Assembly (NCBI GenBank): GCA_001800135.1
Contig: MGUU01000001.1
Span: 1 to 35,001 of the forward strand
From: Elusimicrobia bacterium RIFCSPLOWO2_02_FULL_39_32
GTDB lineage: Bacteria > Elusimicrobiota > Elusimicrobia > 2-02-FULL-39-32
Direction: 5' to 3'
Length of the DNA stretch: 35,001 nucleotides
In this document: positions 8,228 through 35,001 of the stretch, in pieces
Layout of the letters: each line of letters begins with the position of its first letter
Numbering within the stretch: the first letter of the stretch is position 1
The notes under the pieces: model-generated
Told to the model about the DNA's origin: nothing
What the model saw: the letters and a program-made list of their open reading frames with translations, nothing else
The model's database searches: none
Made by a program: the position numbers and the translations under genes

Positions 8228-8718
8228 TGAGAATTGATTCGTCACAACTAACTTTAACTGAAAATGTCATTACTGTAAACAGGGTGGCTAAAGTGGTAAA
8301 AGGTGGAAAACGTTTTTCTTTTAATTCCATTGTGGTTGTAGGAGATGGGGCAAGACATGTGGGAGTTGCTATAGGAAAAGCTAAAGAGGTTCAGGCTGCG
8401 ATTGCCAAAGCAGCTGCTCGGGCTAGAAAAGAGTTAATTGAGGTGCCTCTAGTGGGCACAACTATTCCTCATGAAGTGATTGGCCGGTTTGGAGCTGGAA
8501 AATTGTTGATGAAGCCTGCCGCGCCTGGAACTGGAGTGGTTGCTGGAGGTTGTGTGCGGGCCGTGCTAGAAGCTGTAGGCATTAAGGATATTTTAACAAA
8601 ATCTTTAGGATCTTCTAATACTTTTAATTTAGTGTATGCTACCATGGAGGCATTAAGAAATTTGCGTTCAAAAGAAAGCGTAGCCAAATTAAGAAACAAA
8701 GAATTAGCTGAGGTATAA
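8227..8718 (+). CDS. rpsE: 30S ribosomal protein S5
   Basis: The 163-residue product has both S5 domains: the double-stranded-RNA-binding part ([21 protein letters not shown]) and the C-terminal part with [26 protein letters not shown]5 contributes to decoding accuracy. It starts on the last base of the rplR stop. In the usual spc order rpmD (L30) should follow, but only four bases separate rpsE from rplO. Confidence 0.97.
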
Positions 8719-8722
8719 ACAC

Positions 8723-9187
8723 ATGTTTTCACTTTCTAACTTACACCCAAGTCCCGGCTCTCACCACCGCAGAAAAATTGTGGGAAGAGGGGTGGGCTCT
8801 GGACACGGACGCCATGCCACTAGAGGCATGAAAGGGCAGCGTTCTAGGAGAGGAGATTCTAAAATGGTGGGTTTTGAAGGGGGACAAATGCCTCTTTTGC
8901 GCAGAATTCCAAAACAAGGGTTTACTCCTCCTTTTAAAGAGAAACTTGAGATTGTGAACATTGCTGCGCTAGAGGAGAATTTTGAAAATAATAGCGCGGT
9001 CTCTCCTCAAACGCTTTTAGAAAAAGGTTTAATCCGAACCAATCTTCCTTTAAAAATTTTAGGGAGCGGTGAACTTAAAAAATCTCTTAAAGTTTCTGCT
9101 CAACATTTTTCCCAAAATGCTAGAGTCAAGATTAAAGAAGCCGGAGGGGAAGTTCAAGTTCTTTTGAATGCCCAAAAGAGCAAGTAA
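8723..9187 (+). CDS. rplO: 50S ribosomal protein L15
   Basis: The 154-residue product has the L15 start LSNLHPSPGSHHRRKIVGRG, then GSGHGRHATRGMKGQRSRRG and FEGGQMPLLRRIPKQGF. L15 joins late in 50S assembly. It follows rpsE directly, without rpmD, and is followed by psd rather than secY. The psd ATG lies inside the last 20 bases of rplO. Confidence 0.96.
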   Translation: MFSLSNLHPSPGSHHRRKIVGRGVGSGHGRHATRGMKGQRSRRGDSKMVGFEGGQMPLLRRIPKQGFTPPFKEKLEIVNIAALEENFENNSAVSPQTLLEKGLIRTNLPLKILGSGELKKSLKVSAQHFSQNARVKIKEAGGEVQVLLNAQKSK

Positions 9188-9821
9188 GCTTCCAGTTGCC
9201 AAAGAGGGTTTTCCCTTTATCCTTGGTTTTTGTATTGCTGGTTTCATCTTTGTTTTAATTCCATTCGTTTTTTTTCGCTTCCTTAGTTTATCTTCTTTTT
9301 TACTCGCCACATTTTGCATCTACTTTTTTAGAGATCCGGAAAGGGAAGTTCCGCAAGATTCAACCATACTTTTATCTCCGGGAGACGGAAAGGTGCTGGA
9401 AGTTTCTGAGGAGAGTTCCCCTTACTTTGAAGGAAAAGCAAAAGTAATAAAAATATTTCTTTCCATTTTTGACGTGCACATTCAGCGCGCTCCCATGGCA
9501 GGAAAAATTTTAAGGATTGATTATCAGAAAGGAAAATTTTTAGACGCGAGAAACCCAAGAGCAGCTTATGAAAATGAAAACAATGTTATTGTAATTCAAA
9601 CTAAAAAAAGTAAAATGGTAGTTAAACAAATAGCAGGTCTTATTGCCCGCAGGATCGCCTGCTGGGTTCAAATGGGTGAAGAAATTGAGGCTGGGCAAAA
9701 ACTTGGGCTGATTCGGTTTGGATCCCAAGTGAATTTAATTTTACCCATGGATGTGGAAGTTTGTGTTTCCCCGGGAGAACGCTTAATCGGGGGAGTGAGT
9801 GTTGTAGCGCTGCATAAATGA
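9168..9821 (+). CDS. psd: Phosphatidylserine decarboxylase proenzyme, short type
   Basis: This enzyme makes phosphatidylethanolamine from phosphatidylserine at the inner membrane. The protein has an N-terminal hydrophobic stretch at about residues 14-52, the family segment FFRDPERE (53-60), SPGDGKV (70-76) and FDVHIQRAP (101-109). The RFGSQV motif has Gly185-Ser186, where the proenzyme should cut itself and turn the serine into the pyruvoyl cofactor. At 217 residues it matches the short Psd form. It starts inside the end of rplO, so it is probably translated with the ribosomal operon, and pssA, which makes its substrate, comes next. Confidence 0.95.
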   Translation: MPKRASKLPVAKEGFPFILGFCIAGFIFVLIPFVFFRFLSLSSFLLATFCIYFFRDPEREVPQDSTILLSPGDGKVLEVSEESSPYFEGKAKVIKIFLSIFDVHIQRAPMAGKILRIDYQKGKFLDARNPRAAYENENNVIVIQTKKSKMVVKQIAGLIARRIACWVQMGEEIEAGQKLGLIRFGSQVNLILPMDVEVCVSPGERLIGGVSVVALHK

Positions 9822-33901: not shown

Positions 33902-33932
33902 CGTCATTCCCCGGTCAAGCCGGGGAATGACG
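33902..33932. repeat. REP-like palindrome
   Basis: CGTCATTCCCCGG (33902-33914) and CCGGGGAATGACG (33920-33932) form a perfect 13-bp stem with a five-base loop. No T-run follows on either strand, so it is not a normal terminator. Palindromes of the type GTCATTCCCC are widespread dispersed repeats in bacterial genomes. It lies 43 bases after pgi and 85 bases before the tRNA. Confidence 0.7.
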
Positions 33933-33977
33933 AGCACATGCGAATATTTTAACAGACTTAAGGATAGCTTATGCCTT

Positions 33978-35001
33978 TTAAAATAATACAATTTTTCCAT
34001 CTGGGGTAAAATTTTTGCGCCCATAGCTCAGTTGGATAGAGCGTTCCGCTTCGAACGGAAAGGCCGTAGGTTCGACTCCTACTGGGCGCACCAAAATCTG
34101 ACTTTTTTCAAATTGACCGACTTTTTGGTTGGCGGCGCAAAGCGCCGTCCACTGATTTTGTGGGGGGAATGCAATGCTTTTCGGCGCGCTGACGCGCGCC
34201 TCTCTGCCCGCCAAGACGAGGTTCGAGCCAAAGATTTCTTTGGCAGTAACCTTTTTCGCAAAAAGGTTACTCTCCCGTGCGATTTCAGGCAGGCTTCCTG
34301 CCTCTTTTATCCATTCCGCCATCGGTTCGAGCCAGCCAGTCCGCTTTTGTTCAATCCGCGCCATTTGCTCCTCCAGCGACTTCTTTTCGGAAAGGAGTTT
34401 TGCTTTCTCGGTTCGGTAGATTTCGCGGTCAATATCTTGCTCTAAATATCCATCGAGAAGTCGCTGGAGCTTCGTTTGTATGGCGCGGGTTCTCTCTTGG
34501 CTTTCCTGAACAAAAGCGGTTGAGGATTGGGCGGCTTCGATTTTCTCTTTTTCAAGCATGACGTTAAGTTCCGCCGCCCAATCCGGTCTCAAAGAAAATT
34601 TTTGAATAAGAGATGATAACTGGCGATCCAGTTCCTCTTGGCGAATACAAGGTTCGGGACATTTGAGTTTTGATTTCTTGGTGCAGTGGTAATAGACATA
34701 CTCGTGCACATTGCCGTTCTTTTGCTTTTTCACCTTGTATTCGCCAGTTATCATCATTCCGCATGAGGCGCAGGAAAGGAGGCCGCAAAATGGTTGTGGT
34801 TCGTTTTTCTGCTTGTGGTGCGGACGACCTCTCTGTTTCAATACTTCCTGCGCCTTATCAAAAATTTTCTTGGAGACGACTGGCTGGTGCTTGCCCTCGT
34901 GGATTTCTCCACCATAGCGAAAGTGTCCGTAGTAGAACGGATTGGAAAGGATAAAAGTAATTCTGTCTCGGTGGAGTCGCTTGCCGTTCCGAGAATGGAT
35001 A
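33978..35001 (-). CDS. Large serine recombinase, C-terminal part (partial, N-terminus off the right edge)
   Basis: The frame is open to the right edge, before the first start-like codon at 34841. Reading in from 35001, it gives FILSNPFYYGHFRYGGEIHE and VVSKKIFDKAQEVLKQRGRP, the recombinase domain, then a zinc ribbon with CASCG and later CTKK...KCPEPC, then a long coiled-coil (about 34360-34560). Large serine recombinases cut and join attachment sites to insert or excise elements. The catalytic resolvase domain lies off-window. The last ~38 codons read through the antisense tRNA-Arg (VGVEPTAFPFEAERSIQL) and end at a stop at 33978 in DNA beyond the tRNA. Five hairpins lie in its 3' part. Confidence 0.88.
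   Translation of the reverse strand, partial: IHSRNGKRLHRDRITFILSNPFYYGHFRYGGEIHEGKHQPVVSKKIFDKAQEVLKQRGRPHHKQKNEPQPFCGLLSCASCGMMITGEYKVKKQKNGNVHEYVYYHCTKKSKLKCPEPCIRQEELDRQLSSLIQKFSLRPDWAAELNVMLEKEKIEAAQSSTAFVQESQERTRAIQTKLQRLLDGYLEQDIDREIYRTEKAKLLSEKKSLEEQMARIEQKRTGWLEPMAEWIKEAGSLPEIARESNLFAKKVTAKEIFGSNLVLAGREARVSAPKSIAFPPQNQWTALCAANQKVGQFEKSQILVRPVGVEPTAFPFEAERSIQLSYGRKNFTPDGKIVLF
34017..34093 (+). tRNA. tRNA-Arg, anticodon TCG
   Basis: The full cloverleaf is visible: acceptor GCGCCCA/TGGGCGC, D arm GCTC-AGTTGGATA-GAGC, anticodon stem TTCCG/CGGAA with loop CTTCGAA (anticodon TCG, reading CGA), five-base variable loop, T arm GTAGG-TTCGACT-CCTAC, discriminator A and an encoded CCA at 34091-34093. 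The antisense strand is read in frame as the end of the recombinase gene, which points to integration at this tRNA. Confidence 0.97.
34133..34303. repeat. Run of five short-loop hairpins within the recombinase gene
   Basis: Perfect stems with loops of 3-4 bases: CGGCGC at 34133-34138 with 34142-34147; GGCGCGC at 34183-34189 with 34194-34200; GCCAAAG at 34227-34233 with 34238-34244; AGTAACCTTTTT at 34245-34256 with 34260-34271; and AGGCAGG at 34287-34293 with 34297-34303. The third and fourth touch each other. They use different sequences, so they are not copies of one repeat. Confidence 0.75.
34371..34469. repeat. 14-bp perfect inverted repeat in the recombinase gene
   Basis: CTCCAGCGACTTCT at 34371-34384 is the exact inverse of AGAAGTCGCTGGAG at 34456-34469, with 71 bases between. 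It falls in the part coding for the coiled coil. Confidence 0.6.

Follow-up and report, generated by a model that had tools for sequence, protein, structure and literature searches.

How does the reading frame of a large serine integrase come to run through the antisense strand of an intact tRNA gene, and does integration thereby alter the very enzyme that carries it out? The question is raised by the right-hand end of the window, by which we mean the whole stretch of 35,001 nucleotides analysed here, where a minus-strand frame is open without a stop ahead of tRNA-Arg, passes through the antisense tRNA and stops at 33978 after 340 open codons. The initial annotation had described this course and had ascribed about 38 C-terminal codons to the tRNA and its flank, which is accurate, the codons being 303-340 and 38 in all. 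The features needed for the argument are the following.

33978..35000, minus strand: large serine integrase, C-terminal 340 codons; the N-terminus lies beyond the contig end; PF00239, PF07508 and PF13408 are present in full-length relatives
34017..34093, plus strand: tRNA-Arg(TCG) with encoded CCA, intact, serving as attB; uninterrupted counterpart in G001:C3
34094..35001, minus strand: element-coded portion of the integrase, conserved among the relatives compared up to the codon preceding the tRNA CCA (..SQI-LV)
33978..34093, minus strand: host-derived integrase tail, consisting of antisense tRNA-Arg and 39 nt upstream, which replaces the native tail
34089..34093, minus strand: crossover core TGGTG, the complement of the discriminator base and CCA of tRNA-Arg
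34070..34074, minus strand: T-loop motif CGAAC, offset by 19 from TGG, which is the proposed contact of the zinc domain within the B half-site
34089..34225, minus strand: predicted right inverted repeat, corresponding to the P arm and the last ~44 element-coded integrase codons, by analogy with the repeats of L043, L045 and L048

The insertion at tRNA-Arg

The window frame contains the Pfam domains PF07508 (Recombinase) and PF13408 (Zn_ribbon_recom), and a relative, L045, has PF00239 together with both, which are the class features of a large serine integrase; the integrase profile furthermore matches the A118 integrase (4kis). The contig (C1) stops at 35001 and thus leaves the integrase N-terminus unassembled, and the missing catalytic domain (PF00239) is present on no contig of the window genome, where only an unrelated recombinase was found, on C20. 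The arrangement is not a matter of chance, since 138 of about 173 loci have, according to ARAGORN, an antisense tRNA where the integrase gene ends, counts that are not independent as the loci are mutually related. Compared across other tRNA genes, the related recombinases likewise enter the antisense tRNA and their tails vary, the tRNA-coded part being 3-125 codons long. That the window frame stops past the tRNA is therefore nothing special, since 41 of 132 loci share this position and tail length is arbitrary.

The initial annotation had proposed that an element is integrated at the tRNA 3′ end, that the integrase frame is thereby fused to host DNA, and that the C-terminus would differ in the excised form. 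The first of these is borne out by an empty site in a genome of the same genus (G001) and by a far end on another contig of the window genome, the second by the host origin of codons 303-340, and the third is supported by the attP-spanning P′ arms described below. In the uninterrupted site of G001 (contig C3) a GPI gene is followed by tRNA-Arg and by a TPR/transferase-like gene whose start adjoins the tRNA CCA, and both flanks of the insertion are about 90% identical between the two genomes. The TPR/transferase-like gene of the window genome is found on contig G000:C17, where it is 90% identical to the G001 flank. The left element end, GATTTT joined to AGTGTCTTTACAGCGCAGTTCGAACCTATTTTATCC, adjoins the start of this gene and is followed by genes for an HNH protein (PF01844) and a DNA methylase (PF01555), then by a second P′ arm and, at the contig end, a hairpin. 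The flank gene, the left element end and the second P′ arm on C17 indicate that the window contains the right end of an insertion at tRNA-Arg, which is probably a tandem of two elements. The insertion thus has the features of a tRNA island in that it lies exactly at the tRNA 3′ end, leaves the tRNA intact and has a known empty site.

The initial annotation had also called for a direct repeat, a second copy of the tRNA 3′ end beyond the element, and no long repeat of this kind was found. No second copy of the tRNA 3′ end occurs in the window genome at up to 3 mismatches, nor is there any 28-nt repeat of it in the 10-kb flanks of the relatives, and the long-repeat model was accordingly dropped; what is found is a core of 3-5 bp and a P′ arm that mimics the tRNA. 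A short core instead of a long repeat is what is expected of a serine integrase. The core TGGTG is common to attP, attB and attR, and attL retains 3-5 bp of it, the exact crossover dinucleotide presumably lying within GTG.

Two further observations were made in this genome. A palindrome, cgtcattccccggtcaagccggggaatgacga, lies between the GPI gene and tRNA-Arg (33905-33936) and recurs in copies of ~89% identity on C16, C18 and C26, as a REP-like dispersed repeat. A second, different serine integrase of the window genome (L013, G000:C11, 1-728) ends inside tRNA-His, its stop lying 12 nt into the tRNA and the gene being also cut by the contig end.

The family and its attachment sites

Scanning of the GTDB contigs yielded 79 loci, most of them from Patescibacteria and others from Syntrophaceae, Acidobacteria and Dehalococcoidia; in one class, 150 of 240 genomes proved in a second search to have relatives. 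The hosts of the 138 loci with an antisense tRNA are many Patescibacteria along with Syntrophaceae, Acidobacteria, Dehalococcoidia and members of the window's own class, and the tRNAs hit are those for Gly, Arg, Lys, Leu, Thr, Val, Tyr, Cys, Asp, Glu, Ala, Gln, Ser, Trp, Asn, Ile, Met, Pro and His. Integrases at Gly, Arg, Lys and Leu tRNAs of different phyla are 74-92% identical, and at the DNA level they cease to match at the tRNA CCA: in close relatives the DNA is conserved to ..AGTCAGATTT and continues with TGGTG or TGGAG and the resident tRNA, from which it follows that the element-coded sequence ends at the CCA and that the discriminator base belongs to the shared core. The integrase bodies are under strong purifying selection (dN/dS ~0.1-0.25). 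A phage or viral origin was rejected, since IMG/VR holds neither a relative nor the attP pattern and phage and plasmid matches are distant, none of those among the matches listed exceeding 30% identity. It should also be mentioned that the integrases of L045, L048, L104 and L119 are 75-90% identical to that of the window although they come from different phyla (Patescibacteria, Syntrophaceae, Acidobacteria, Dehalococcoidia); this likeness points to transfer between phyla, contamination of metagenome bins being another possible source. At the insertion sites U73 was seen in tRNA-Lys (L108, L109) and A73 in tRNA-Gly (L043, L044, L046), which may be either peculiarities of the hosts or the result of integration having changed the discriminator base, which is an identity element of the tRNA.

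In complete relatives, which measure 3.3-7.4 kb in total, the integrase lies between inverted repeats of ~137 bp that are 95-100% identical (98.5-100% in L043, L045 and L048), and the right copy codes for the last ~44 residues. Outside the left copy a P′ arm is found in reverse orientation, and the same P′ arm recurs in forward orientation at the far left end of the element, giving the layout host / P′ - cargo - P′(inverted) - P(inverted) - integrase - P / tRNA. The cargo is flanked by inverted repeats of its own (69-324 bp) made of the P′ arm and hairpins, and it varies from restriction-modification-like genes to a zeta-toxin-like kinase with an HD protein, membrane proteins and an XRE regulator, with no second gene in common among the cargoes looked at. 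The idea of a simple insertion sequence, a unit of ~1.8 kb with inverted repeats, was dropped since a second, left-end P′ arm and cargo were found. On a reading that we consider an even bet, the element would consist of an integrase module and a cargo module, each lying between inverted repeats, with two identical inverted attP sites as the joints. The attP sequence was deduced from internal P′-P copies and from attL and attR, and the excised circle should accordingly hold two identical attP sites in inverted orientation. The right inverted repeat of the window (34089..34225) is predicted from the relatives rather than visible in the window itself, and its left copy would fall in the unassembled gap.

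Hairpins of 13-18 bp were observed to the left of the inverted P′ arm in L048, L058, L068, L085 and L108, with arms that differ between elements yet stay complementary and with a conserved loop (TTCCTTTT.GAAGAAAAAATCGGTCGCGCGC); one such hairpin forms the end of contig C17. In L082 a frame judged by eye to be tryptophanyl-tRNA synthetase-like lies between two P′ arms (8323-8868).

In complete relatives attP is situated inside the integrase gene, and reading the integrase from P into P′ yields a conserved C-terminus, ..ARTYFxxN followed by a stop. The P′-coded peptide is ~12-15 residues long and ends in ..[AVI]RT[YFH]Fxx[N].. and a stop, with native tails such as ILVCLYSLARTYFIRNS, MVRLFYQIRTYFQNL and ERFFEFARTHFSTKV, all three ending at the stop, and WRCFLDEVRTFFEKN..; in our translation the two P′ arms of the window genome (contig C17), joined to SQI-LV, read ILVCLYSAVRTYFIRNG and ILVCLYSLARTHFIKNC, each followed by a stop. 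In 46 of 48 distinct P′ arms the motif [CA]GAAC stands in the integrase frame as Arg-Thr, at 24 nt from TGG if TGG starts a codon, at 23 (once 20) if its T is the second base and at 25 if it is the third; the exceptions are L139, a pseudogene, and L195, with an in-frame CGAAG (VRRFF). Variation furthermore falls on synonymous sites (Arg as CGA or AGA, 17:14; Thr as ACN with all four third bases), and the stop is kept a few codons after the Arg-Thr motif. Since the spacing shifts by 1-2 nt exactly with the entering frame, the sequences indicate that the tail is selected as protein, and it is this conserved peptide that is lost on integration. Part of the conservation is nonetheless not coding, since the P′ arm serves at the same time as a DNA site and in some clades resembles a sigma70 promoter (in L082 with 11 of 12 consensus matches). 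Integration cuts off the conserved peptide and substitutes an antisense-tRNA peptide, so that the C-terminus of the protein is altered as in an integration-dependent switch, and the native-tail protein is encoded by no intact locus. In one structure model of a tail-swapped protein residues 509-524 are disordered, with a pLDDT of ~37 there against a mean of 74.9 overall. It looks as though the tRNA-derived tail itself is arbitrary and the loss of the native tail is what matters.

The sites have the form known from large serine integrases, a short core and a zinc-domain motif lying ~5 bp more distant from it in attP than in attB. The T-loop motif is offset from TGG by 19 nt in the tRNAs as opposed to 23-25 in the P′ arms (52 of 52 pairs scored), and for the LI integrase the zinc-domain motif is shifted by 5 bp between attB and attP (PMC3783163); taken together, these offsets make the tRNA T-loop the probable zinc-domain contact. 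The T-loop, where the crossover of DsiB has been inferred to lie, was rejected as the crossover site since acceptor stems differ among close relatives at different tRNAs and the identity of the elements ends at the CCA.

Two identical attP sites lead one to expect both orientations of integration. The tail-swapping orientation is however found in 138 loci and the opposite one in three: L055, where the integrase is broken and the element lies at the ssrA (tmRNA) 3′ end (9000-9200), L140, where the native tail is frameshifted, and L073, the 3′ side of which is off the contig. Two of the three opposite-orientation copies are thus damaged, and the bias suggests a loss of those integrated copies that can still make the native-tail enzyme, although with so few cases it is a lead and not a proof.

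What loss of the native tail may do

The mechanism that we propose starts from what can be read directly in the sequences, namely the insertion, its breakpoints, the P′ arms, the conservation of the tail as protein and a tail-swapping orientation in nearly all copies. On this view tRNA-Arg has received at its 3′ end a small integrative element that encodes a large serine integrase, the host site consisting of conserved tRNA features with the CCA and discriminator as core and the T-loop (TTCGA) as binding motif. The attP would span the integrase 3′ end such that the P arm codes for the last ~44 body residues and the P′ arm for the conserved C-terminal peptide, and the excised circle would make full native-tail integrase. 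Integration would exchange the P′ arm for the tRNA, whereby the native peptide is lost and an arbitrary antisense-tRNA peptide gained, and this swap may switch the integrase once integrated, leaving it with a presumably altered activity. In the most likely version the native tail is needed for attP x attB recombination, which the tail-swapped integrase would no longer perform, and loss of the tail would protect the chromosome, in which a second attP is still intact and tRNA attB sites number in the dozens, from rearrangement. As a whole, this explanation (a tRNA-inserted element with attP across the integrase 3′ end, a tail lost on integration and an activity altered thereby) is the best available, and we put its probability at roughly 0.6. 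The purifying selection on mostly tail-swapped copies is no less compatible with continued mobility than with permanent inactivation, and a dN/dS of ~0.1-0.25 in fact favors the former.

Alternatively, the tail-less form would change the direction of the reaction and favor excision, so that the native-tail form integrates, the tRNA-tail form excises and a separate directionality factor is replaced rather than the enzyme switched off. This we hold to be possible but rather unlikely. It is in agreement with the lack of a second gene common to the cargoes looked at, with the continued purifying selection on the integrase bodies, and with the decay, in two of three cases, of opposite-orientation copies, which could not switch; a directionality factor fused to a serine integrase has also been reported to control direction (PMC5737554). 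However, the tRNA tails are wholly different in sequence and length, and therefore just the loss of the native tail, not the gain of a particular one, could carry the signal, while a directionality factor may also be encoded elsewhere in the genome.

The orientation bias could likewise have another cause in expression, in that tRNA transcription enters an integrase of opposite orientation in sense and the resulting over-expression destabilizes such copies. The geometry of L055, with the ssrA 3′ end beside the 5′ side of the integrase, would agree with this, but the explanation, which we find doubtful, accounts for the bias only and has no bearing on the conserved native tail or on its loss.

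The notion of a neutral by-product, which the initial annotation had left as an alternative, holds that attP happens to overlap the integrase 3′ end, that the P′ arm is conserved as DNA and that the C-terminal residues are immaterial in either state. The zinc-domain-like motif of the P′ arm, its promoter in some clades and the tolerance of arbitrary tRNA tails are compatible with this, but constraint on DNA only predicts one spacing and about one third of the arms in frame, whereas the P′ peptide stays in frame despite a changed entering frame (spacings of 23, 24 and 25), varies synonymously (CGA/AGA, ACN) and retains its stop. The notion is thereby weakened to the point of being improbable, the C-terminus lost on integration being conserved as protein.

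Finally, antisense-tRNA ORFs are known for peptides such as GVEPT..SIQLSYG, which might mark the tail as an annotation artefact, the protein ending elsewhere or not being made, but this is scarcely credible for a true integrase frame that is conserved to the last codon before the tRNA and enters it in the same frame in nearly all close relatives.

Relation to known systems and meaning of the finding

The closest parallel is DsiB of the Dehalococcoides ssrA islands, a serine recombinase the gene of which overlaps the attachment site with its 3′ end, as does the integrase gene here, and reads into ssrA or a neighbouring island, and it was suggested that DsiB may be fully functional only on the circularised element (McMurdie et al. 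2011, PMC3146451). Those islands have as their own a single site, ssrA, a T-loop crossover, a 20-bp repeat, a partner, DsiA, and a multi-gene module (PMC3146451), whereas the window family uses nearly all tRNA types as targets and has paired inverted attP sites. The window element is set apart from them by its target, tRNA-Arg, by having no 20-bp repeat and by the partner gene, no DsiA-like gene being present in the cargoes looked at; ssrA is the target, by its 3′ end, in one relative only (L055). Furthermore, the work on DsiB saw a divergent C-terminus only, whereas the window family has a conserved native tail coded across attP. In mycobacteriophage BPs attP likewise lies inside an ORF and integration alters the C-terminus of the encoded repressor and thereby its state (PMC4557955), but the protein altered there is separate from the integrase and loses a degradation tag, while here it is the serine integrase itself. 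The phage large serine integrases (A118/LI, TP901-1, phiC31, Bxb1) share with the window family the domain order, the zinc ribbon, the coiled coil and the ~5 bp shift of the zinc-domain motif between attB and attP; unlike them, the window family targets tRNA 3′ ends and has attP inside the integrase ORF, and no directionality-factor gene was seen. Islands of the Islander/TIGER type resemble it in inserting at the tRNA 3′ end and leaving the tRNA intact, but differ from it in that here the enzyme is a serine integrase and the core 3-5 bp rather than a long repeat of the tRNA 3′ end. The literature searched, which included few subscription journals, describes no such serine integrases at tRNA genes in Patescibacteria, no conserved native tail coded across attP and no paired inverted attP sites, though priority is not certain.

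The one-way course of serine integration and the timing of excision are usually attributed to a separate directionality factor. There is about as much for as against the broader view that the loci make up a large, mostly Patescibacterial class of elements with attP in the integrase gene, in which integration would edit the integrase off or into reverse without such a factor. The finding explains why many annotated recombinases of these genomes end in antisense-tRNA peptides, and it shows general tRNA features (T-loop and CCA) as the target of a serine integrase in nearly any tRNA across phyla, which may be of use in finding integrases for uncultured groups. Here the enzyme is rewritten by the act of integration, a directly testable control that is internal to the gene.
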